Of a DNA stretch of 41,303 nt, positions 23,853 through 38,755 are shown piece after piece. The notes under the pieces were generated by a model. The model was not told the origin of the DNA. It did not search any database and was given only the letters and a program-made list of their open reading frames with translations. How positions within the stretch are numbered: position 1 is the first letter of the stretch; each line of letters opens with the position of its first letter. Source of the stretch: a virus; the IMG/VR virus record IMGVR_UViG_3300034072_001414, positions 1 to 41,303 of that record; one strand, written 5' to 3'. The translations under genes were made by a program, and so were the position numbers.

Positions 23853-24536
23853 TCAGCCCAGGCTGAAAAGCAGGTTCCCGTCCGGTATCTCGGCCTTGCG
23901 GCCGCCGCCAGCATGCAGGTCGGCGGTCAGGCGGCAAACCGCCACGGCCGCCGGCCCGTCATCCGACATCTTCGGCTCGACCAGCAGGAAGGCCTGGCGC
24001 ACGGCCACCGGCGGCAGGGCCATGCCCAGTTCGATCGACGGCTTGTAGACCAGACGTGCAACGCTGCCGGCGAAACGCTGGAAATCGCTCGGACGCGCCT
24101 CGATCGGTGGCACCGGCAACAGCTCGCCATCCGCATCGGCGAAGACGATCGCCACGCTGTCGCCAGCGGCCAGCGCATCTTCCAGCCGCGCGATCAGCGC
24201 TGCCCGCTCGGACGGCGCCGCGGGGACCAGCAACACGATGCGTTGGCGCGTCGCGTCGGGCGCGTCGGGCGCGTCGGGCGCGTCGGGCGCGTCGGGCGCG
24301 TCGGGCGCGTCGGGCGCGTCGGGCGCGTCGGGCGCGTCGGGCGCGTCGGGCGCGTCGGCGGGTTCCAGATCGGCCAGCGCGCTGTCAATCATTTCCAGCG
24401 CCCCTGCGCGCGCCTTGTTGCCCTTCGCCTGCTCGGCCGCTTTCAGCGCCGCCAGCTCCGCACCATCCAGATCACCCAGGGCCTGGCGCATCTCGTCCAG
24501 CGTGCCCTCGCTCAATGTCTTGATCTTCTCTTCCAT
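23853..24536 (-). CDS. Hypothetical virion-region protein with Pro-Asp-Ala repeat
   Basis: A 227-residue protein with three parts: an N-terminal helical domain (LSEGTLDEMRQALGDLDGAE then LAALKAAEQAKGNKARAGAL) reminiscent of small Mu-type phage domains; a Pro-Asp-Ala tripeptide repeat at about residues 60-95; and a mixed C-terminal domain (RQRIVLLVPAAPSERAALIA, VAIVFADADGELLPVPPIEA). The tripeptide run comes from a perfect 9-bp tandem repeat. The gene lies between the terminase group and the portal. The function is unknown; the repeat looks like a flexible linker whose length could vary. Confidence 0.7.
   Translation of the reverse strand: MEEKIKTLSEGTLDEMRQALGDLDGAELAALKAAEQAKGNKARAGALEMIDSALADLEPADAPDAPDAPDAPDAPDAPDAPDAPDAPDAPDAPDATRQRIVLLVPAAPSERAALIARLEDALAAGDSVAIVFADADGELLPVPPIEARPSDFQRFAGSVARLVYKPSIELGMALPPVAVRQAFLLVEPKMSDDGPAAVAVCRLTADLHAGGGRKAEIPDGNLLFSLG
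24253..24351. repeat. Perfect 9-bp tandem repeat, eleven copies
   Basis: GCGTCGGGC repeats eleven times without a mismatch, with a further imperfect copy (GCGTCGGCG) after it. On the coding strand it gives Ala-Pro-Asp in frame, so gain or loss of copies would not shift the frame. The lack of drift between copies implies recent expansion. Confidence 0.97.
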
Positions 24537-24789: not shown

Positions 24790-26343
24790 TCAGTGCCCCC
24801 TCTGGCTGAAATATCCGCTGCCGTAGGACACGCGCGGCCCCTGCGCCTTGCGCGCGGCCGACCGGCGGTCCATGTCGTCGATGATGCGCCCGCGCATCTC
24901 CTCCAGCCCCAGGCACAGATACTGGTTGCCGTCCTGCGAATGGCTGAAATCATTCTTGCTGGGCATGTCGCGGAATCGGTCGCCCGCGCTCGTCTTGATC
25001 CGCTCGATGATGTAGCCCGCGGTAAAGCCCCGGCGCAGCATCGAACAGCTGGGGTCCAGCAGATAGGCGGGCTGGCCGCCCGGCGATCGGTTCAGCCGCT
25101 TGCGCACCGCTTCCAGCCGCGGCTCCAGCCGGTTGCCATCGCGGCCGCCCGGCCGCCACTCGCCGCCGAATGTCCGCTTGAAAATGTCCATCCAGGTGCC
25201 GGCATCGTCAAACTCGCCGAAGTCGGCAGCGGGGTCGTAGAACCCCCGGCCAAAGCGCAGATTGGGCCAGCGCCGCCCCATAAACTCGCGGGCGATCTCG
25301 GCGAAGGCGGTCGGCCCCAGCCGCGCCAGCTCGCCCTTCTGCTTGGGGTCGAACAGCACCAGCTCACCCAGCACGCGCAGCTGGTCCATGTCGCTCAGCT
25401 GGGCAAAGATCATCGCCGGGGTGCGGCCGCCGTCCAGCCCCGCCAGCAACGGCAGATTGGGGTCGGGCGTGATCGGCTCGCGCGCGACATGCATCTGCTC
25501 GTTGAATTCGGGAAAAACGGGCTGGCCGTTCCGCACCGCGCCGAACTCGTTATGCACGAACCGCCGCAGATAATTGGGCTGGTTGGCATAGGCCAGCAAC
25601 AGGCCCTCATAATAGCCTTCGGGCAGGTTCTGGATATTCTCGGGCGGCGGGTCTTTCGACAGGCCGCCGGGCTGCTTCCAGTAACCGATGCCGAAGCGCG
25701 GCCCCAGCACGTCTTTCAGCTGGTTTTCCTGCTCTTCGTTCAGGCCCAACTTACCCTCGACGAAGAAATCATAGGTCCAGTTGTCGATGTCCGGCGCGTT
25801 GAAATCCGCGATCACGCCGCGCCACTGGCACCCGCCCATCTTGGCCGGCGGATAACGGCCCGTGCGCGGCCAGCCGAACAGGAAGACGCTCTGGTCCAGC
25901 GTGTCGGTTTCGTTGAGCCACAGGCCGGTCAGCTCCAGCCCCTTCAGCACGTCTTCCGCCTTCTGGTCGCCCATCGCGCGGAACAGCATTTCGATCTCGA
26001 TCTGGCAGGGCTGGCCCGTGCCGTCGATCACGTCGAAGCGCAGCGTGTGCTGCATCAGCCCGCCATGCCAGTTATTCTTGGTTTTCGGGAACCAGGCGAA
26101 CCATGATTTCATCACGTTCGCTTCCAGCTGGCCATAGGTGTCGCGGATGCAGCACCAGCGCACCCGGCGCACGCCATCGGGCCCCGGATTCTGCCAGAAG
26201 GCGCTGTTGACGATCTTGCGGATGCACGTCGTCGTCTTCGCCGACCCGAACGGCCCCATGATCGCGGTCAAAAACCGCTGGTCGTTCACGAAGCCCTCGG
26301 CCTTGGGGCCGACCGGTGCCATCAGGGATGCAAAGCCGCTCAA
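24790..26343 (-). CDS. Terminase large subunit (packaging ATPase/nuclease)
   Basis: A 517-residue protein if it starts at TTG 26343, which overlaps the previous stop (TTGA); ATG 26322 is the alternative. Walker A is GPFGSAKTT at about residues 30-38, with LTGLWLNET a likely Walker B and catalytic Glu. A C-terminal RNase H-like nuclease follows, with LLAGLDGGRTPAMIF as its first acidic motif. The enzyme docks on the portal and pumps DNA into the head. The N-terminal part of the longest open frame (to 26604) lies over another gene and is discarded. Confidence 0.9.
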   Translation of the reverse strand: MSGFASLMAPVGPKAEGFVNDQRFLTAIMGPFGSAKTTTCIRKIVNSAFWQNPGPDGVRRVRWCCIRDTYGQLEANVMKSWFAWFPKTKNNWHGGLMQHTLRFDVIDGTGQPCQIEIEMLFRAMGDQKAEDVLKGLELTGLWLNETDTLDQSVFLFGWPRTGRYPPAKMGGCQWRGVIADFNAPDIDNWTYDFFVEGKLGLNEEQENQLKDVLGPRFGIGYWKQPGGLSKDPPPENIQNLPEGYYEGLLLAYANQPNYLRRFVHNEFGAVRNGQPVFPEFNEQMHVAREPITPDPNLPLLAGLDGGRTPAMIFAQLSDMDQLRVLGELVLFDPKQKGELARLGPTAFAEIAREFMGRRWPNLRFGRGFYDPAADFGEFDDAGTWMDIFKRTFGGEWRPGGRDGNRLEPRLEAVRKRLNRSPGGQPAYLLDPSCSMLRRGFTAGYIIERIKTSAGDRFRDMPSKNDFSHSQDGNQYLCLGLEEMRGRIIDDMDRRSAARKAQGPRVSYGSGYFSQRGH

Positions 26344-26699
26344 GACAGCTGGGCCCGCGTGCAGCGGTCGAACCGCTTTTCCATCTCGCCAAAGCGCGGC
26401 AGCGCGATCTTGTCCGGCTTGGGCGGGACAGGGCGGAGCGCGGCGGTGGAAGGCCGCGCCCCTTCTGCAACGGGGCGCTCTTGCGACGCGGGATCCGGCG
26501 CGATCACCGGATGCAAGGGAGCTTGCGGCTCGTACCTGACGCCCCTCTCGGTTATGACGGGAAACTTGATCACGCCGCGATCGGCAAGCACGACCAGCGG
26601 ACACGGATCATTGCCGGAACAGCCGATGCCGGTGATGGCGCCGATATGACAGACCAGGCCCGCGCACGGCCTGCTGACGCGGCCGGACGGGTCAGACAT
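26340..26699 (-). CDS. Hypothetical protein between the terminase subunits
   Basis: A 119-residue protein starting MSDPSGRVSRPCAGLVCHIG. Its ATG overlaps the upstream stop by eight bases (ATGTCTGA) and its stop overlaps the terminase TTG. It has an N-terminal region with three Cys (C-x5-C and a later Cys), then a Pro/Ala-rich linker and a basic C-terminal part (PPKPDKIALPRFGEMEKRF). The function is unknown; position suggests packaging or an accessory of terminase. The coupled overlaps at both ends support translation. Confidence 0.65.
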   Translation of the reverse strand: MSDPSGRVSRPCAGLVCHIGAITGIGCSGNDPCPLVVLADRGVIKFPVITERGVRYEPQAPLHPVIAPDPASQERPVAEGARPSTAALRPVPPKPDKIALPRFGEMEKRFDRCTRAQLS

Positions 26700-27903: not shown

Positions 27904-27933
27904 GATGTATCTGATAGGCACAATCGCGGTCAA
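27904..27933 (-). promoter_or_regulatory. Late promoter with operator O4
   Basis: On the minus strand TTGACC (27933-27928) and TACATC (27909-27904) are 18 bases apart (17 to ATACAT). Operator O4 (27904-27924, GATGTATC-TGATA-GGCACAAT on the plus strand) occupies the spacer and the -10 box, so a bound repressor would block RNA polymerase. It reads toward the terminase genes and is probably the main late promoter. Its layout is nearly the same as the promoter at 35507-35536. Confidence 0.7.
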
Positions 27934-27948
27934 GGCGGCCACCCTCTT

Positions 27949-28218
27949 GTTGCCGCCGTTGCCAGCGATTGTTTCAATGGCAACGGGACTGGCAACAGGA
28001 TTTCCTAGCTAGATCATAGTCCTAGATCATGCAGAGGCATATTGTTGCCATGTTGCCGCGTTTGCCTCGCGCGCACATGCGCACAGGCCCGCGCATCCGC
28101 GCCCACATATGCGAAAAGACGCCAGACAGCGGCAACATGGCAACAAAGGCCGCAACATACTGATAAATATAGATATTAACATGGCAACATCGCTGCCCAA
28201 GGTGGCAACAATGGCAAC
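27949..28218. other. Iteron-like GGCAAC array with AT-rich segment, candidate replication origin
   Basis: Eleven exact copies of GGCAAC or its complement GTTGCC occur in 270 bases: starts at 27949, 27958, 27979, 27991, 28044, 28052, 28131, 28139, 28183, 28204 and 28213. Ten form five close pairs 8-12 bases apart. An 18-bp perfect inverted repeat links 28042-28059 with 28130-28147. Between copies lies the most AT-rich stretch nearby (28159-28180). Paired iterons plus an unwinding-like segment are typical of initiator-dependent origins; an operator array is the alternative. Confidence 0.65.
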
Positions 28219-28533
28219 CCCCTGACCCGATCGGCGCAGCCACAATCGACCCAATTAATTCTCTGCTGAGAATGGGTCGGGGTAAGAGCCCATAGGAGAG
28301 AAGGTGCGATGTAAGATGCTGGTATGTTTTACCTTTTCGGCCGGGAGAGAGGATAAGGAATGCGGACGCACCGGCGCCGCTGCGCGGCACCTGTCCGCAT
28401 AGTTTGGCGCCAGCCGGTTAGAATGAATGTGCCTATCTGACACATTTCTGTTGACAGGCGGGTCGGGGCTGGGGCAGCACATGCATGCCACGCCGGTAAT
28501 TGGTCCGGGTGGCACGGCAAGGAGGCCGACCAC
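28219..28533. other. Upstream region of the small plus-strand operon
   Basis: These 315 bases contain operator O5 (28426-28446) and a TTGACA at 28451-28456 without a convincing -10. Frames on the minus strand across this stretch start in odd places and lack coding bias. Apart from the operator and the ribosome site (AAGGAGG, 28519-28525) for the next gene I see nothing definite. Confidence 0.5.
28426..28446. promoter_or_regulatory. Operator O5, perfect-arm palindrome
   Basis: AATGTGCC-TATCT-GACACATT. The outer six bases of each arm are exact complements and the spacing equals that of the other operators. It is the most symmetrical member and lies 88 bases before the first plus-strand gene. 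Confidence 0.7.
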
Positions 28534-28713
28534 ATGCAACGCGCAATCATCGACTATGGAAGTGAAACCCTGGACGTGCTGATCCCCGCCGGCACCGATC
28601 TTGATGATGCCTTTGACGCGATCGATGCCGAGAGCGGCGAAATGATCCGCATCAACGGATGGATGTTGGACAGCGACGCGATCAGCTTCGACCAGGCCGG
28701 GAGTGTCTACTGA
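28534..28713 (+). CDS. 59-residue hypothetical protein, first gene of small operon
   Basis: A 59-residue acidic protein starting MQRAIIDYGSETLDVLIPAG. A strong ribosome site (AAGGAGG) lies eight bases before the ATG. The stop overlaps the next ATG by one base (TGATG). The sequence has alternating strands (TLDVLIPAG; EMIRINGWML) and no membrane segment. I do not recognise it. As the first gene after operator O5 and the candidate origin it is probably an early phage gene. Codon use (GC-rich third positions) supports coding. Confidence 0.75.
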   Translation: MQRAIIDYGSETLDVLIPAGTDLDDAFDAIDAESGEMIRINGWMLDSDAISFDQAGSVY

Positions 28714-28946
28714 TGAGCATCGCCACCCGCCCCAGCGACGCCGATGCGGTCGCCTATGTCGTCGATCATTTCGCCACGCGCGACTATGACATGACCATCC
28801 TCTGCACCGGCGCCGGTGAAAGCAAGCAGGGCGCCGACTGCACCGACGTCCATTTCGTCGATGCCCGCGAGGATGACGGCCCCACCTACATCATGACGGT
28901 CTGGCATGAGCAGGCCAAGGGCGGCGCGCTCTACGGCGAATGGTGA
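28713..28946 (+). CDS. 77-residue hypothetical protein
   Basis: A 77-residue protein starting MSIATRPSDADAVAYVVDHF, coupled to the previous gene by TGATG. It has a compact alpha/beta pattern (YDMTILCTGAGESKQGADC, PTYIMTVWHEQAKGGALYGE). The two Cys and an acidic middle are visible, but no known motif. The frame extends upstream to 28659 over the previous gene; the coupled ATG is the better start. Probably an early accessory protein of unknown role. Confidence 0.75.
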   Translation: MSIATRPSDADAVAYVVDHFATRDYDMTILCTGAGESKQGADCTDVHFVDAREDDGPTYIMTVWHEQAKGGALYGEW

Positions 28947-29013
28947 CCTGACTGCATCGCCCGAGGCGCGGGCCGGATCCCGCGCCTCCTCCATGCAGCC
29001 AAGTGAGGATGCC

Positions 29014-29226
29014 ATGCCCCAGCCCGATCTGTTCGGCCACTCGGCCCCACGCCGCCGTCCGCGTGTGCTGATGCACGCGATCGATGCCGGCAGCTTCCCG
29101 GACGGCAAGGACGCGGCGCGGTTCTCCTGCCGCCGCTGCAACCATGGCAGCGGATGGATATACGCCAGCCGCTGCGAAGCCCGGCGCGGCATTCCGTGCC
29201 CGATTTGCAATGCTGCGACAGAATGA
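29014..29226 (+). CDS. Small zinc-ribbon-like protein
   Basis: A 70-residue protein starting MPQPDLFGHSAPRRRPRVLM, with a GTGAGGA ribosome-like site seven bases before the ATG; an ATG at 28993 is possible. Two Cys pairs, FSCRRCNHGSGW and GIPCPICN, form a likely treble-clef or zinc-ribbon finger. The N-terminal part is basic. Small zinc-finger proteins of this type are common early phage proteins and may bind nucleic acid or a host protein; the target is unknown. It converges with the secreted-protein gene at 29256. Confidence 0.7.
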   Translation: MPQPDLFGHSAPRRRPRVLMHAIDAGSFPDGKDAARFSCRRCNHGSGWIYASRCEARRGIPCPICNAATE

Positions 29227-29255
29227 TTGCGGGCAGCAGCGACGAGCCAGCGAGA

Positions 29256-29858
29256 TTAGGGCTGGGATGGCAGGCCGATCAACTGGCGAACGCGGGGCCA
29301 ATTGATCGGCAGCACGGTCGACCGCATGACAGTTTCGATCTCGTCTTCAAGTCCTTTAGGCGCGAAAGACGAGAGAACGGCCGCCGCGTAGCTATCACTC
29401 GCGTAAGCCTGCAGTTTCATTGCCAAAAGCGCGGCATCCGCGACTGGGCGGGAAATTTTTATTGCCCCCCTGACGTGGCTTGGCCCCTGACACGCAAATA
29501 TCAAAAGCTGCTCGCTCGTAGATTCCGGATCAACATTTTCTCGCTGGGCATCAAATTCTTGGAAGCGGCGACTCTTAATCAGCTTTCCGGCCGCATCATA
29601 TGCTCGCTGATCAAGGAACTGCATCTGTCGGCGATTACAGTCGATCCGCACGAGTTCCTTTACGTGGGTCACATTCTGCAATGGCGATTTGTAGAATGTC
29701 TGCATCCAAACTTGCCGGTAGGCGAAGTCGGCAACCACGCTATCTTTGTCGGCATAGAACGTCGCGGTATCATGGCCGGATATCCAATACCATGTCGCGG
29801 CCTTTGCTGGTGCCGGCGTCAATATGACGCTGGCAAGCACTATCCCCCACCTGTGCAT
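29256..29858 (-). CDS. Secreted surface-adhesin-E-like protein, probable moron
   Basis: A 200-residue protein with a signal peptide: MHRWGIVLASVILTPAPAKA then ATWYWISG. The mature part (TATFYADKDSVVADFAYRQV, VTHVKELVRIDCNRRQMQFL, YDAAGKLIKSRRFQ) fits the short 'surface-adhesin E'-like periplasmic/outer-surface family, in which a conserved Cys and aromatic residues recur. It runs opposite to its neighbours, has visibly lower GC than the flanks, and is not coupled to another gene, so it is a good candidate for a lysogenic-conversion gene. ATG 29858 is chosen because it starts directly at the signal peptide; ATG 29888 is possible. Confidence 0.75.
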   Translation of the reverse strand: MHRWGIVLASVILTPAPAKAATWYWISGHDTATFYADKDSVVADFAYRQVWMQTFYKSPLQNVTHVKELVRIDCNRRQMQFLDQRAYDAAGKLIKSRRFQEFDAQRENVDPESTSEQLLIFACQGPSHVRGAIKISRPVADAALLAMKLQAYASDSYAAAVLSSFAPKGLEDEIETVMRSTVLPINWPRVRQLIGLPSQP

Positions 29859-29987
29859 AAGCTCGCTATCCTTGCTCAAGACGATCATTCCTGCCATATC
29901 ATTTGCCGCTGGGTAAATCCCCAGCACGTGATTGGCGTCACGCTCTACACAAGGCGCACCCGCGCCGGACCGCCCGTCTAGGCGCGG

Positions 29988-30105
29988 TTCTTTATGGTCG
30001 GGCGTGTCTGGAGACCTACGGGTCGCCGCTACCTTGTGGGCGGTACGCCAATCCGGGCACGTCCGGCCACCAATTTGGCGTTTGGTTGCCGGGCCTTTCA
30101 CAAGG
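29988..30105 (+). ncRNA. c4: C4-type antisense RNA upstream of the antirepressor
   Basis: The stretch from TTCTTTATGGTCG through GGCGGTACGCCAATCCGG to TTTGGCGTTTGG matches my memory of the C4 antisense RNA of phages P1/P7 (Rfam C4 family). A hairpin CCGC (30026-30029)/GCGG (30040-30043) exposes CCTTGTG (30032-30038), the exact complement of CACAAGG (30099-30105), which contains the ribosome-binding site of the antirepressor. A second stem is ACGCCAA (30045-30051)/TTGGCGT (30075-30081). In P1 this RNA, cut from the same transcript, blocks ant translation. The exact ends here are estimates. Confidence 0.82.
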
Positions 30106-30113
30106 AATAGGCC

Positions 30114-30839
30114 ATGAGCGAAGTAATTCCATTCAGTTTCGAAGACCAGCAGGTTCGCGTCATTATGATTGATGACGAGCCGTGGTTTGTTGCGACGGAC
30201 ATTTGCGCAGCTTTAGATCTCGACAATGTAACCAATGCCATCAAGCGGCTCGATGACGACGAAGCTACCCTCATTTCAATTAAGGGCAGCGATCAGACAC
30301 GGACGACAAACATCGTGTCGGAATCCGGCATGTATTCGCTGGTGCTGGGCAGCAGGAAGCCGGAAGCGCGGCGGTTTAAGAAATGGATCACGTCGCAGCT
30401 GCTGCCCACCCTGCGCCGCACCGGCCGCTATATCCTGCATGACGCGCTGCCCCGGCCGCTGGTGTCGGCCGATATCGATCCGCCGCGCATCATGGCGGCC
30501 GTGGCCCTGACAAACGCCGCGCGGCGCCTCTATGGCATTGCGACGGCGCGCCGGGTCTGGGCACAGTGCGGCCTGCCCGTCGCGATCGCCGACGCCACGG
30601 CTGAGTTGGAGGATGATCCCTTCGCCGCCAGCATTGCTGCCTGGGCGACTGGGCGCAGCGGTTTCTCGATCGAGGAATGCGCGGAAGGCATTGGTGTGCC
30701 CGATCTCGACCTGGCCACACGCCTGCGCATCGGCAGACTGCTGCGCGCGCTGGGCTTCCGCCGGCACACGGTTCGCCGCGGCGATCGCATCGTCAATGTG
30801 TTCATCGTCGCTGATGGCGCCCAGGCCGCGGGAGCATGA
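30114..30839 (+). CDS. BRO-N domain antirepressor (Ant-like)
   Basis: A 241-residue protein. Residues 1-110 form a BRO-N domain: EDQQVRVIMIDDEPWFVATD then ICAALDL, AIKRLDDDEATL, SESGMYSLVLGSRKPEARRF and KKWITSQLLPTLRRTGRYI. BRO-N/Ant proteins counter the phage repressor and favour lytic growth. The C-terminal half (AVALTNAARRLYGIATARRV, GFSIEECAEGIGVPDLDLAT) carries a likely HTH-like DNA- or protein-binding domain. The ribosome site AAGGA is seven bases before the ATG and is covered both by the C4 complement and by a local GGCCT/AGGCC stem. Translation should therefore be blocked while C4 is made. Confidence 0.9.
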   Translation: MSEVIPFSFEDQQVRVIMIDDEPWFVATDICAALDLDNVTNAIKRLDDDEATLISIKGSDQTRTTNIVSESGMYSLVLGSRKPEARRFKKWITSQLLPTLRRTGRYILHDALPRPLVSADIDPPRIMAAVALTNAARRLYGIATARRVWAQCGLPVAIADATAELEDDPFAASIAAWATGRSGFSIEECAEGIGVPDLDLATRLRIGRLLRALGFRRHTVRRGDRIVNVFIVADGAQAAGA

Positions 30840-31202: not shown

Positions 31203-31335
31203 CGTCCATGCCTCCAATCCAGTGAATGAAAATCGGGAAGGAAGTTCGCCAGAATGGCGGCTTCAACAGGCCCAGCCACAGCCGGCCGATCTGCGCCTCC
31301 CAGGCCGTCGCGCCGCTGATGAGGACGATCCTCAT
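31195..31335 (-). CDS. 46-residue hypothetical protein
   Basis: A 46-residue protein starting MRIVLISGATAWEAQIGRLW. Its ATG overlaps the helicase stop (ATGA, 31332-31335) and its stop overlaps the next gene by eight bases. It has a hydrophobic, Trp-rich middle (LWLGLLKPPFWRTSFPIFIH) which could lie at or in the membrane. I do not recognise it. The double coupling and position in the replication operon are the evidence that it is real. Confidence 0.6.
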   Translation of the reverse strand: MRIVLISGATAWEAQIGRLWLGLLKPPFWRTSFPIFIHWIGGMDDD

Positions 31336-33287
31336 GCCACCTCCGCCGGCAAAGGCCCCTTCTGGTCCCATTCGACGACCAGATTGAGCGGGATCAGGGT
31401 CGAGCTTTCGGGATTGCCGTCATAGCGCACCATGACGCGGCTGATCGCGGCGCCATCGGCCTCGGCCTTGCCCTTCACGCGATTGAGCGACTGCGACCAA
31501 ACCCCGCCCTTCCAGTCGGTGGCGGCGAACACTTCGGCCAGCCCCTTATGTTCTTTGGCGCTCGACACGGCCAGATAGACGAACTTGAACGGCGTGAAAT
31601 CGCGCTCGATCCCCCACCGCGCGTCCTTCGCCTTGGCGCTGGGCGGCTTCGCATTGACCAGGCGCAGGCCATAGGTGCGCAACTTGTTCAGCGCCTTCTC
31701 GTCGAACAGGGCGCCGTCCCGCTCGGTCAGCGCCTTGGCGATCCACCGCCCCACGCTTTCCTGCTCCAGTCCGCTCGCGGCGGGCAGCTTGTGCGTGGTC
31801 AGCGTGCGCAGGCAGCGCACATGGTCGCTTTCCCCGTCCACCTCGGCCTGCAGGATGATCGGCAGCAACAGCCGCACATAGCGCTTAACCCGCTCGTCAT
31901 CCTCGTTCATGTCGCCCAGGTCGCCCGAATGCGGCGCATCGTCGTAAAGCAGCATGTCGGCACAGGCGAGCAACGATCCATATTGGTCGCCATGCCGCGC
32001 TGAAAACCCCTCGCGCTGGATCTCCAGCTTGTACCGGTCATAGGTACGCAGATAGCGGGGCCACTGGTCCATCATCCGCCGCCGCATCGCCGCGCCGCGC
32101 TGGCGGATCACATCGGGCACGATCGCCGGTTCCTTGCTGCCCTGCGGCAGGGTCAGGGCGTCCAGCACGGTGATGCGGTTGCGGTCCTGCGCGATCAGCG
32201 GCGCATGCAGGATCGAGGTGAAGAAGAAACAGCTTTTCGCCGTGAAACTCTGCCCCTTATGCTCGCTGCTGCCTTTCAGCGCCGTGCCGCCCGAACTGGA
32301 AATGCGCGCCAGGCCCAGCACCTTCATCTTGTTGTCGTCGCCGGCCTCGGCCTCGAACTCGTCGATCAGCACCGCCAGCGCGTCGCGGCGCAGCATCTGC
32401 CTTATCCCTGCCTCGGTCGCGGATTCGGCGCGCAGCCGCCATCCGTCCATCAACCAGTCGATGATGTTCATCAGCGTGGTCTTGCCGCTGCCCGACGCGG
32501 CGTTCAGCCACATATGCGGGCGCCAGGGCAGCGCGCCGGGGATCAGCATCGCCGCGCACTGGCCCAGCAGCAGCAACGGCATGATGCTGGGTTCGCGCCA
32601 ATGCCACTGCGCGAACAGCCGCAACGTCTCGGTCGCCTCGCGGATCTCGCTCGGCCGCTCGGACGGCGGCGGCAGCTCGGCGCCGCTAGGGAACACCGCC
32701 TTGTCGACCAGGCCGGGCTCCACATAGTGCGGCGCCCGCCTCTGCCCCTGCAATCCCACCGTCTCGCCGATCAGCAGCTTGTCACCGCAATGCAGGATCA
32801 GCTGGCCGTCGCGGCCGACATGCGCGCCGCGGCCCAGCTCCTGCGTATTGGGGTCGAAAATCCCGGCCCAGCTGCACGCGCGGATCAGCGCCTTTTGCGC
32901 CTTGGTCTGGTCCAGCCCCTTGATCTCGAACACGGCCGCGCCCCATTCGTCGATCATCGGGTCGCCGGTCGCCGGGTCTTTCACCGGCTTGCCATATTGC
33001 GGGAACAGAGCGTCGGCCTTGCCCGGATCGCGCCCGAACAGCGAATAGATATCGCCCTTGGTGAACTGGCTCGACACATCGACCAGCTGGCCATTGTCGT
33101 CGATGAAGAAATAGGTTTTGCCGAACTTGCCCAGCGCGATGATCGGGCAATCGGGCGGCAGACCCGTGGCGGACGGGTCGGGGCGGCGCCGCTGTGCGGG
33201 CGCCATGTCGCCCAGCAGCGGCGCGTCAACCGGTGCGGCGGCAGCGGCGGCGACGGATTCCAGGCCGGGTGCGGGTGCTTTTGCCAC
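31332..33287 (-). CDS. Phage replicative helicase-like P-loop protein (DUF927 type)
   Basis: A 651-residue protein with a central ATPase: Walker A at AASGSGKTTLM (about residues 270-280) and Walker B at AVLIDEFEAE (about 310-319), followed by a sensor-like region (ARISSSGGTALKGSSEHKGQ) and an arginine-rich segment. The N-terminal part (PIIALGKFGKTYFFIDDNGQ) and layout fit the DUF927/phage primase-helicase family that works with a TOPRIM primase, encoded two genes upstream. It should unwind DNA for phage replication. It starts ten bases after the 264-aa gene. Confidence 0.83.
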   Translation of the reverse strand: MAKAPAPGLESVAAAAAAPVDAPLLGDMAPAQRRRPDPSATGLPPDCPIIALGKFGKTYFFIDDNGQLVDVSSQFTKGDIYSLFGRDPGKADALFPQYGKPVKDPATGDPMIDEWGAAVFEIKGLDQTKAQKALIRACSWAGIFDPNTQELGRGAHVGRDGQLILHCGDKLLIGETVGLQGQRRAPHYVEPGLVDKAVFPSGAELPPPSERPSEIREATETLRLFAQWHWREPSIMPLLLLGQCAAMLIPGALPWRPHMWLNAASGSGKTTLMNIIDWLMDGWRLRAESATEAGIRQMLRRDALAVLIDEFEAEAGDDNKMKVLGLARISSSGGTALKGSSEHKGQSFTAKSCFFFTSILHAPLIAQDRNRITVLDALTLPQGSKEPAIVPDVIRQRGAAMRRRMMDQWPRYLRTYDRYKLEIQREGFSARHGDQYGSLLACADMLLYDDAPHSGDLGDMNEDDERVKRYVRLLLPIILQAEVDGESDHVRCLRTLTTHKLPAASGLEQESVGRWIAKALTERDGALFDEKALNKLRTYGLRLVNAKPPSAKAKDARWGIERDFTPFKFVYLAVSSAKEHKGLAEVFAATDWKGGVWSQSLNRVKGKAEADGAAISRVMVRYDGNPESSTLIPLNLVVEWDQKGPLPAEVA

Positions 33288-33296
33288 GACAGCCTA

Positions 33297-34091
33297 TCAG
33301 CGAAAACGATGGTCACGCTGCATCCGCATCAGCGCGGATCGCGGGCTTTCTTCGGGCAGGATGTCATAGCTGCACCCCACAGTGCCGCCTTTCCAGCTGC
33401 CGGCGCGCTCGCCAACCTCGTCGCTGAAATGCACGTCGATACTGTCAAAGACCTTCTTGGGCATGATCGAGCGAATGAACCGCCGAAGCCGGATTGGCCC
33501 GAACCAGCGGCGCCCATGAAAGGCACGACGGCGCGTAATGGTCGCCTGCACTTCCTGCACGGTGCCATTCTGCAGCATGTAGCGATAGGGATGGACCTCG
33601 CTCCACTTTTCAGGGCCGATCGGGCCGACGTAGCGATGCAGCGGGTTAGGATGCTTGCGCGCCCAGTGATTTTCGGGATGGCTGCGATCGTCATGCCAGC
33701 GCATGTCGGTGCCCAGATAATCCGTGCGGATATGCTCCAGGCCCCACGGCCACCAGAGGATCGCGGATCGCTGCCCCCAATAGAACATCAGGCCATCGTC
33801 CGACGAACTGAAGCCATAGGACGCCCAGTCCATGCCCAGCTCGCGCTCACGGAAAAAACGCCGGGTGCAGAGCGGCATCGGCGCGAACCATGTGAACAGG
33901 CCAAAGCCCAGCATCAGGCTGGGTCGCTCGCCATAATGGACCGCCTTGCAAGCGACCGTGCGATAGCGATAGCCGATTTCGCCGATCCTGGTCCGCACCG
34001 AACCATCGCCGGCCCAATAGGTGGCGCCCAACAATTTAGCCCAAAGCGGCATGCGCGGCTCGCGGCCATAGGTCTCGAATTTGTCACGCAT
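33297..34091 (-). CDS. Unknown 264-residue protein in the replication operon
   Basis: A 264-residue protein starting MRDKFETYGREPRMPLWAKL. It is rich in Trp, Tyr, His and Arg (MLGFGLFTWFAPMPLCTRRF; YWGQRSAILWWPWGLEHIRT; DMRWHDDRSHPENHWARKH), with no signal, membrane or known motif. It overlaps the primase stop by eight bases. The aromatic, basic make-up would suit a DNA- or membrane-proximal protein, but I cannot assign a function. Its place between primase and helicase implies a replication role. Confidence 0.8.
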   Translation of the reverse strand: MRDKFETYGREPRMPLWAKLLGATYWAGDGSVRTRIGEIGYRYRTVACKAVHYGERPSLMLGFGLFTWFAPMPLCTRRFFRERELGMDWASYGFSSSDDGLMFYWGQRSAILWWPWGLEHIRTDYLGTDMRWHDDRSHPENHWARKHPNPLHRYVGPIGPEKWSEVHPYRYMLQNGTVQEVQATITRRRAFHGRRWFGPIRLRRFIRSIMPKKVFDSIDVHFSDEVGERAGSWKGGTVGCSYDILPEESPRSALMRMQRDHRFR

Positions 34092-35163
34092 CGCGCATCC
34101 TCTTCCCCATCAGCTGGTCATTGACATCCTTGAAGCCGGGATCGGGCCAGATGAATTGCATCCGCTTGCCCATCCTCTGCTGCACGGCGATATTCTTCTC
34201 CAGCAGGGCCGTGGCCTTGCTGTCGGCGGCGTCGCGATCCGCGATCCAGACGATATGCGGAAAGGGCAGCTGGCACAGATTGGCCAGCGCCACCGATGCC
34301 GCGGCGGGGATCCCGCGCGCGACCTGGGCGATGGTCAGCACATTCTCTATGCCCTCGCCGCAATGCACCGGTCCGGCCATGGCAATCGGCTCGAACGCGC
34401 CATCGGGGATCTCGCCCTTGCCGTTCAGCCCCTTCCACAGCGGGATATAGCCGCCCGCCTCATAGTAACGGCCCAGCGTCATCTTGGTGAGCTTGCCCAG
34501 CTCCGCCTTCATGCTGCGCCATGTCCCGCCCTCGCGCGTGATCCATGTGCGATGCGTCGCCACATGCTGGCCGCCCCGCATGATCGCCGCGACCAGGCAC
34601 GGCGCCTCGCGCTTCAATGTCGAATGATAGACCCGGCCATAGCGCAGCGCGCCGGGGATATGGCCCAGCAGGCCGAAATCGATCCCGCGCGCTTCCAGAT
34701 AATATTGGCCCGCCGTCCGGGCGATCGGCTCGCATGACAGCCACAGGGCACGGGCGTGCCGGCGCGACTTGGCGTCGGCCTCGGCCTGCTTGCGCTGCTG
34801 CCGTTCGGCCGACGCGATCGCCTTGCGCCGCACTTCCTTGAACTGCTTGGGCGTCAGCTCTGCAATGCCCAGAAACGCCTTGCACCAGTCGATCGCCGGC
34901 TTCTTGTCGCCGCCATAGGCCGCCTGGGCGACCAGCTCGACCAGATCGCCGCGCGCATCGCCGGCATAGTCGCGCCAGCGCCCCTGCCGCGCGCCGCGCA
35001 GATAGATTTTCAAGCTGCTGCCCGGCTCGCCGTCGATCGACCCGACGCAATAGAAGCCGCCTTCCTCGCGTCCCGCCGGCAAGACCTGCCGGCAGACGGC
35101 GGCGGCATGCGGCGCCAGCATCTGCGCGATATCCGCCACGGCGATATCCTGCCCCCCGGCCAT
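34084..35163 (-). CDS. TOPRIM-domain phage primase
   Basis: A 359-residue protein. The N-terminal part (GEPGSSLKIYLRGARQGRWR then DYAGDARGDLVELVAQ) matches the zinc-binding-like primase domain seen in phage/plasmid primases of the DUF7146 type. The C-terminal TOPRIM domain shows GPVHCGEGIENVLTIAQ (Glu metal ligand) and PHIVWIADRDAADS (Asp-x-Asp). Such proteins make RNA primers for the helicase encoded downstream. A basic region (EVRRKAIASAERQQRKQAEA) lies between. The start is three bases after the HTH gene's stop, so regulator and primase are cotranscribed. Confidence 0.88.
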   Translation of the reverse strand: MAGGQDIAVADIAQMLAPHAAAVCRQVLPAGREEGGFYCVGSIDGEPGSSLKIYLRGARQGRWRDYAGDARGDLVELVAQAAYGGDKKPAIDWCKAFLGIAELTPKQFKEVRRKAIASAERQQRKQAEADAKSRRHARALWLSCEPIARTAGQYYLEARGIDFGLLGHIPGALRYGRVYHSTLKREAPCLVAAIMRGGQHVATHRTWITREGGTWRSMKAELGKLTKMTLGRYYEAGGYIPLWKGLNGKGEIPDGAFEPIAMAGPVHCGEGIENVLTIAQVARGIPAAASVALANLCQLPFPHIVWIADRDAADSKATALLEKNIAVQQRMGKRMQFIWPDPGFKDVNDQLMGKRMRDA

Positions 35164-35506: not shown

Positions 35507-35536
35507 GATGTATCCATATGGCACATTTGCCGTCAA
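35507..35536 (-). promoter_or_regulatory. Replication-operon promoter with operator O6
   Basis: On the minus strand TTGACG (35536-35531) and TACATC (35512-35507) are 18 bases apart (17 to ATACAT). Operator O6 (35507-35527, GATGTATC-CATAT-GGCACATT on the plus strand) fills the spacer and covers the -10. A start codon follows seven bases after the -10. The same arrangement occurs at the late promoter, 27904-27933, and 19 bases of O6 are repeated in reverse at 36107-36125. Confidence 0.8.
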
Positions 35537-36048: not shown

Positions 36049-36126
36049 TTGACATGATCGCCAAAAAGGCGATGTGTCAGCTAGGCACATTTTGCGCTTG
36101 ATGCGAATGTGCCATATGGATACATA
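36049..36126 (+). promoter_or_regulatory. Right-operon promoter with operators O8 and O9
   Basis: The main promoter is TTGATG (36098-36103), 17-base spacer, TACATA (36121-36126). Operator O9 (36106-36126, AATGTGCC-ATATG-GATACATA) covers the spacer and the -10. Upstream is O8 (36071-36091, GATGTGTC-AGCTA-GGCACATT), 35 bases away centre to centre, overlapping a perfect small hairpin ATCGCC-AAAAA-GGCGAT (36057-36073) and a second possible -35 TTGACA (36049-36054). Two operators in tandem suggest cooperative repression. Confidence 0.75.
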
Positions 36127-37906: not shown

Positions 37907-38755
37907 ATGAACATTGGCAAGGACTTGGGGCAGGATCAGGCCGGCCCCTTCGATTTCTCCTCCATTCAGGAGGTCAAGCTCGGCCATGGCGCCCACAAGA
38001 GCGCGGCCGAAGGCATGTGCTTCATGGAAATGGTGGCCTGGTTCGCCGGTGAGGCGCACAGCGACAAGCCGGCCTGCGCCTGCAACGTCCTCGGCCGCTA
38101 TGGCATGGCACTGAATGATCGCATGCCCAATGATCTGCGCGACGAATTGTTGAAGCCGCTGGTCCCGATGATTGCCGGCACCCGCGGGTCGCTGGATGAT
38201 CGCATCGCCCGCGCGCGCTTCCTCGCCATGTGGTCCATCAACAAGGTGCTGTCGGCCCTGATGCGTCGGCGCGGGCAGGAGGCGCTCGCCATCGCCTGCG
38301 AGATCGCGGCCGACATCTCGGAAGCCCGCGCGGCCGCGCAGGCGGTCAGAAAATGGGCTGCTGATGCTGCTGCTGCTGCTTATGCTGCTGCTGCTTATGC
38401 TGCTGCTGATGCTGCTGATGCTGCTGCTGCTTATGCTGCTGCTGATGCTTATGCTGCTGCTGCTGCTTATGCTGCTGCTGCTGCTTATGCTGCTGCTGCT
38501 TATGCTGCTGCTGATGCTGCTGCTGATGCTGCTTATGCTGCTGCTGATGCTGCTGCTGATGCTGCTTATGCTGCTGCTGCTTATGCTGCTGCTGATGCTG
38601 CTGCTGCTGCTGATGCTGATGCGCGTCGCGAAATCTATGAAATCGCGGTCGAGGGCCTGCGCCAAGCCATTTTGATCGGCCCGCACGAAGGGTTCGATGT
38701 CATGATCGACCTGCGCGCCCGTCATGCCGATCTGGCCAAGCTCGTCGCGGCCTGA
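37907..38755 (+). CDS. Protein with long Ala/Tyr/Asp trinucleotide-repeat segment
   Basis: A 282-residue protein starting MNIGKDLGQDQAGPFDFSSI, with GGAGG five bases upstream of the ATG. The N-terminal 150 residues (VKLGHGAHKSAAEGMCFMEM, VLGRYGMALNDRMPNDLRDE, ARFLAMWSINKVLSALMRRR) look like a normal helical phage domain. Residues about 150-238 consist only of Ala, Tyr and Asp (YAAADAAA-type), then a normal end (EIYEIAVEGLRQAI). Within the repeat all codons are GCT, TAT or GAT, unlike the GCC/GCG-rich flanks, so it arose by repeat expansion. Function unknown; the repeat would form a long helix. Confidence 0.85.
   Translation: MNIGKDLGQDQAGPFDFSSIQEVKLGHGAHKSAAEGMCFMEMVAWFAGEAHSDKPACACNVLGRYGMALNDRMPNDLRDELLKPLVPMIAGTRGSLDDRIARARFLAMWSINKVLSALMRRRGQEALAIACEIAADISEARAAAQAVRKWAADAAAAAYAAAAYAAADAADAAAAYAAADAYAAAAAYAAAAAYAAAAYAAADAAADAAYAAADAAADAAYAAAAYAAADAAAAADADARREIYEIAVEGLRQAILIGPHEGFDVMIDLRARHADLAKLVAA
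38357..38622. repeat. GCT/GAT/TAT trinucleotide microsatellite
   Basis: About 88 consecutive codons use only GCT, GAT and TAT, giving a (GCT)-type microsatellite interrupted every four or five triplets. It is in frame and its ends are abrupt. On the opposite strand and in other frames it produces spurious Ser/Ile- or Leu/Met-rich frames. Confidence 0.97.

Follow-up and report, generated by a model that had tools for sequence, protein, structure and literature searches.

A 270-bp segment (27949-28218) of the window, by which we mean the whole 41,303-bp viral contig analysed, contains a dense cluster of the hexamer GGCAAC and its complement GTTGCC. The question raised by this locus is what the cluster does and which protein reads it. 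An initial annotation had proposed that the hexamers are binding sites of a phage initiator placed beside an AT-rich unwinding element, and this proposal is supported, as the hexamers are conserved in relatives and similar arrays track the helicase. Based on conservation, co-occurrence with the helicase, synteny, covariation, predicted fold and sequence composition, we consider it very probable that the array is a phage replication origin whose iterons are bound by the phage's own SF3/D5-type helicase (31332-33287).

The iteron array and its surroundings

All eleven exact hexamers claimed for the 270 bp were found, with starts at 27949, 27958, 27979, 27991, 28044, 28052, 28131, 28139, 28183, 28204 and 28213. 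Dinucleotide shuffling of the whole window gave 26.7 expected hexamers, or about 0.17 per 270 bp, compared with the earlier figure of about 0.1. A cluster this dense has a Poisson tail probability of about 1e-12. As described initially, the hexamers are mostly paired: ten of eleven lie in same-strand pairs 8-12 bp apart, with spacings of 9, 12, 8, 8 and 9. The reported 18-bp perfect inverted repeat exists, with its left arm at 28042-28059 and its right arm at 28129-28146, one base to the left of the position given earlier (28130-28147). The AT-rich stretch 28159-28180 was confirmed and is the A+T maximum of the whole window. Only 10 of 41,281 22-mers match it in AT-richness, and the most AT-rich 22-mers of the window are located at about 28157-28182. 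The features of the array and of the genes discussed below are as follows.

27949-28218: iteron array, proposed replication origin, 11 GGCAAC/GTTGCC copies
27949-27996: left outer iteron set, two GTTGCC (9 bp apart) facing two GGCAAC (12 bp apart)
27997-28043: left A+T-richer segment, 40% GC, with imperfect CTAG/GATC palindromes
28044-28057, minus strand: left core iteron pair GTTGCCatGTTGCC, 8-bp period, within the inverted-repeat arm 28042-28059
28068-28085: strictly alternating purine-pyrimidine (Z-DNA-prone) run CGCGCGCACATGCGCACA, 18 bp, the longest in the window
28131-28144, plus strand: right core iteron pair GGCAACatGGCAAC, 8-bp period, within the inverted-repeat arm 28129-28146
28145-28182: AT-rich segment, 29% GC, candidate unwinding element, holding the window's most AT-rich 22-mer
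28183-28218, plus strand: right outer iteron set, GGCAAC at 28183, 28204 and 28213
24790-26604, minus strand: terminase-large-subunit homologue
30114-30839: Ant/Bro-N antirepressor gene, near the array
31332-33287, minus strand: predicted SF3/D5-type helicase, 651 aa, proposed initiator, with a C-terminal beta-hairpin (615-633) as proposed iteron reader
34084-35163, minus strand: TOPRIM primase (DUF7146; phrog_510 DNA primase), clustered with the helicase gene

The run CGCGCGCACATGCGCACA, absent from the initial annotation, sits in the 73 bp that separate the inverted core pairs; the runner-up alternating run in the window is 16 bp long. The array combines the longest alternating run of the window with its most AT-rich 22-mer. 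GC skew of the window gave no origin signal, and a blastn search of the array against phages returned no match.

The array lies in a divergent intergenic region, as expected from its earlier placement between divergent late and early units. It had also been placed away from the helicase gene. This holds for the window, where the two are about 3.1 kb apart and separated by opposite-strand genes (28534-30839), but not for most relatives, in which the array is usually 3′ of the helicase gene. A conserved dyad, TGTRYC-N5-GRYACA, is present on both sides of the array (27906-27922 and 28428-28444) and at 35509-35525, 36073-36089 and 36108-36124; these dyads are candidate repressor operators. The gene between helicase and primase (33297-34091, minus strand) matches Pfam Acb3 (CBASS inhibitor) with an E value of 1e-38. 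Elsewhere in the window, dense ATGCTG/CAGCAGC-type repeats at 38364-38618 are probably a coding repeat, and eleven CCCGAC copies in 96 bp at 24255-24350 probably form a tandem repeat within a late gene.

Arrays in close and distant relatives

Conservation of the hexamer pairs in relatives had been set beforehand as a check, and the outcome was strongly positive. In one relative with about 97% identical DNA (L123) and two whose helicases are about 72% identical (L148 and L149), all eleven hexamers are kept without a change in any of their 66 bases. The remaining 204 bases of the array show 24, 100 and 92 differences, respectively (12-49%), and the contrast between hexamers and the rest has p values of 8e-4, 1e-16 and 6e-15. 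All three also preserve the two core pairs with their 8-bp period and the distance from one pair to the other.

In phages with helicases only 24-35% identical, the top clustered hexamer of the genome is usually an iteron array, placed next to the helicase gene or in the interval between it and the terminase. The words themselves differ: AGAACC (L151), GGTAAC (L152, L159), GTTACA (L156), CTCACA (L158) and CGTTAG (L157), with CCTAAC and AGACA among further spellings in helicase relatives. Loci L157-L160 were retrieved after the pattern had been seen and gave three strong arrays and one weak. The same hexamer scan of phage P4 ranked the annotated crr first and ori second.

A search with a 12-sequence helicase alignment provided the loci of the best 80 of 564 relatives, some of the 80 being near-duplicates. 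A fixed strict criterion (Poisson 1e-8, both strands, one or more same-strand pairs with a spacing of 7-12 bp) identified arrays in 61 of these 80 loci versus 0 of 68 control viral contigs (Fisher 5e-25), a comparison that is not perfectly matched because the controls were mostly retrieved for holding a GGCAAC 14-mer and are shorter on average. Among the 80 helicase loci, 19 had no array at the strict threshold and 11 none at the loose one. At this looser cut arrays were found in 69 loci, 66 of them 3′ and three 5′ of the helicase gene. Their commonest pair spacing is 8 bp, and many are separated from the helicase gene by less than 1 kb. Many relatives are arranged as helicase - array - terminase, and some have one long primase-helicase gene. 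A single motif model could be fitted to 78 iteron sets: p0 (G/A/C), p1 (any), A, A or G, C, p5 (A/C/G).

The alternating block is also recurrent. Of 78 arrays, 65 contain the longest alternating run found anywhere in their locus, with about 1.2 expected by chance, and many relatives have strong purine-pyrimidine alternation in the spacer that separates the inverted core pairs; the AT-rich spacers of L156 and L159 are exceptions. Flanks just outside the core pairs are AT-rich, at 41% and 50% GC versus 64.5% overall (44 arrays). Judged from sequence, the block is Z-DNA-prone and may have a Z-DNA role of some kind. No paper bringing together Z-DNA, phage, replication origin and iterons was found in the open-access literature.

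Scanning for the DNA pattern only (two inverted GTTGCC-type pairs) picked out ten contigs. Several are relatives of the window and several look like chance. The same scan revealed GTTGCC arrays in unrelated phages, at L005:2877-3057, L139:5269-5573 and L140:4174-4485. The first two abut genes with VapE-like helicase domains and the third a DUF5906 gene; these helicases belong to other families than that of the window, and the arrays possibly follow the same origin logic. An exact 14-mer scan of viral contigs produced mostly chance matches, but yielded L006 and L005. A pattern scan of genome contigs detected mostly period-8 GTTGCC-type repeats in metagenome-assembled genomes, which were not taken as origins; such GTTGCC/GGCAAC tandem repeats occur in L141-L145, from Acidobacteriota, Saprospiraceae and Gemmataceae metagenome-assembled genomes.

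The helicase as candidate reader of the iterons

The window protein 31332-33287 had no Pfam helicase match, and a profile search of solved-structure sequences gave P-loop-level matches only, with no Rep/Pri-Rep homology. Its AlphaFold2 model (69 sequences) has a pLDDT of 90.9. Foldseek matched this model to D5, ASFV PrimPol, the SaPI5 primase-helicase, PriRep1 with dsDNA and NrS-1, with query-normalised TM-scores to the PDB matches of only about 0.23-0.33, so that the structural match covers part of the helicase. The model predicts a C-terminal hairpin with strands 615-622 and 625-633, along which residues 619, 621, 626 and 628 alternate; from the strand register we infer that all four face the same way.

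The same residues stand out in covariation with the iteron bases. With labels permuted within the two main clades, mutual information placed R621, P626, M619 and S628 at ranks 1, 2, 3 and 5 of 561 columns, and hairpin residues were also singled out without clade stratification. In finer strata 619 and 626 keep ranks 1 and 2, and 621 and 628 move to 14 and 34. C at p5 pairs with K621 in 16 of 19 cases, and C at p0 with Y, W, L or Q621 in 8 of 10. H156, which came first for one iteron position in the unstratified analysis, appears to follow the split between the main clades. Class-based tree tests were picked after the data had been seen. The covariation is clade-confounded and is good but not conclusive evidence that the hairpin reads the iterons, because neither a sister-pair contrast nor a generic tree co-change ranking singled out the hairpin residues. 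Overall, co-occurrence, synteny, covariation and the predicted fold single out the helicase as the likely binder among the three candidates considered.

Based on these data the following sequence of events can be proposed. The C-terminal domain of the helicase would bind the iterons, with residues 619, 621, 626 and 628 of the beta-hairpin reading the bases of a site p0(G/A/C)-p1(any)-A-A-C-p5(A/C/G). The two 8-bp-period pairs, which face one another over a distance of about 73 bp, would place two hexamers of the helicase; the AT-rich segment 28145-28182 would then melt, the helicase would load itself, and the TOPRIM primase encoded beside it would join. The Z-prone block between the core pairs could act as a topological element that stores or releases negative supercoiling, or could be a spacer. 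Iteron recognition by the helicase is supported indirectly, with the base-residue covariation concentrated in the C-terminal hairpin; binding, hexamer loading, melting, origin activity and any Z-DNA role are inferences, as is every step after recognition.

Three other functions were weighed. A packaging (pac/cos) site recognised by the small terminase subunit is one candidate: the array of the window lies just upstream of the terminase genes, and the arrays of the window group and of L152, L154 and L157 are likewise upstream of genes on the terminase side, with the helicase gene kilobases away. In L151, L153, L155, L156, L158, L159, L005, L139 and L140, however, the array abuts the helicase or primase gene, and several of these arrays are kilobases away from terminase. 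The P4 record lists no terminase gene, yet similar arrays in it are annotated as ori and crr, and the iteron bases covary with residues of the helicase, the protein whose columns were compared. A packaging site is disfavoured because so many arrays adjoin the helicase away from terminase and their P4 equivalents are annotated as ori and crr, and we regard it as very unlikely.

An operator array for a repressor or antirepressor acting at divergent late and early promoters would fit the divergent intergenic position and the nearby Ant/Bro-N gene. A better operator candidate is the dyad TGTRYC-N5-GRYACA, because it is a different sequence that flanks the array and recurs at 35.5-36.1 kb; for this reason, and with the relatives' arrays often just 3′ of the helicase gene and associated with helicase across families, the operator reading appears even less probable than packaging. 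Partition sites can also hold iteron-like repeats, and P4 ori and crr are built of the same repeats, so a centromere-like partition or plasmid-maintenance site, or a crr-like accessory element distinct from the origin proper, could look similar. The window holds only one such array, this array carries the AT-rich minimum, and arrays track the helicase; we give this explanation the least credence of the three.

Relation to known origin systems

As a replication origin read by its helicase, the array would work like SaPI/PICI and P4 origins. The initial annotation had called it a novel origin type. It is not isolated, since it follows SaPI/PICI and P4 logic and recurs in a large phage family, and the working principle is known from those elements; what is new is that it is spread across full-sized phages of a large family, that diversified iterons go with matching residues in the hairpin, and that the core is Z-prone. 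We found no report of such an origin type in phages in the open-access literature. Origins are unmapped for most environmental phages, and the sequence rule predicts an origin and its reader at once for 61 or more phage loci, and about 560 relatives are within reach. These loci lend themselves as a natural data set from which to derive a protein-DNA recognition code, and a possible Z-DNA role at a replication origin becomes directly testable. It is conceivable, although on balance we doubt it, that they represent a large unrecognised class of tailed phages with helicase-read iteron origins and a conserved Z-DNA-forming core, in which hairpin and iterons co-evolve under a readable code that lets the words diversify among phages, and a B-Z transition of the core gates melting of the AT-rich segment beside it.

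The likeness to lambda ori is limited to initiator-bound repeats beside an AT-rich region. In lambda the iterons are internal to the O gene, whose product is not a helicase; no O-like protein was detected among the window early proteins scanned.

P4 ori1 and crr contain 8-bp type I tandem repeats 9-11 bp apart in both orientations, and crr is just 3′ of the primase-helicase gene. The type I octamer is TGTTCACC, whereas the window repeats are GGCAAC/GTTGCC. P4 has separate ori and crr, and its single alpha protein unites primase, helicase and DNA-binding domains, which in the window are represented by separate primase (34084-35163) and helicase (31332-33287) genes. The phages with VapE or DUF5906 helicases (L005, L139, L140) share GTTGCC pairs with an 8-9 bp period, inverted around a spacer and adjoining the helicase gene, but their helicases are of other Pfam/PHROG families. 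No published origin mapping for such phages was found in the open-access literature.

A further close parallel is with SaPI/PICI origins, where short iterons form two sets around a melting region, 3′ of the gene for a self-loading helicase (PMC6092414, PMC7581432), and the C-terminal domain of SaPI Rep helicases recognises the iterons directly downstream of their own gene (PMC7581432). The window has the inverted iteron sets and the AT-rich DNA, with the AT minimum outside the core spacer: this spacer is GC-rich and alternating, whereas in PICIs the AT-rich region is between the iteron sets. Much of the family has its array immediately 3′ of the helicase gene, with 66 of 69 arrays on the 3′ side and many of them less than 1 kb away; in the window about 3.1 kb of genes intervene. 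The predicted fold of the window helicase matches the SF3/D5 group, including the SaPI5 and PriRep1 structures, but sequence-level homology to solved Rep proteins was not detectable. The PICI authors called this layout unique to PICIs (PMC6092414); in the family described here it extends to full-sized phages.
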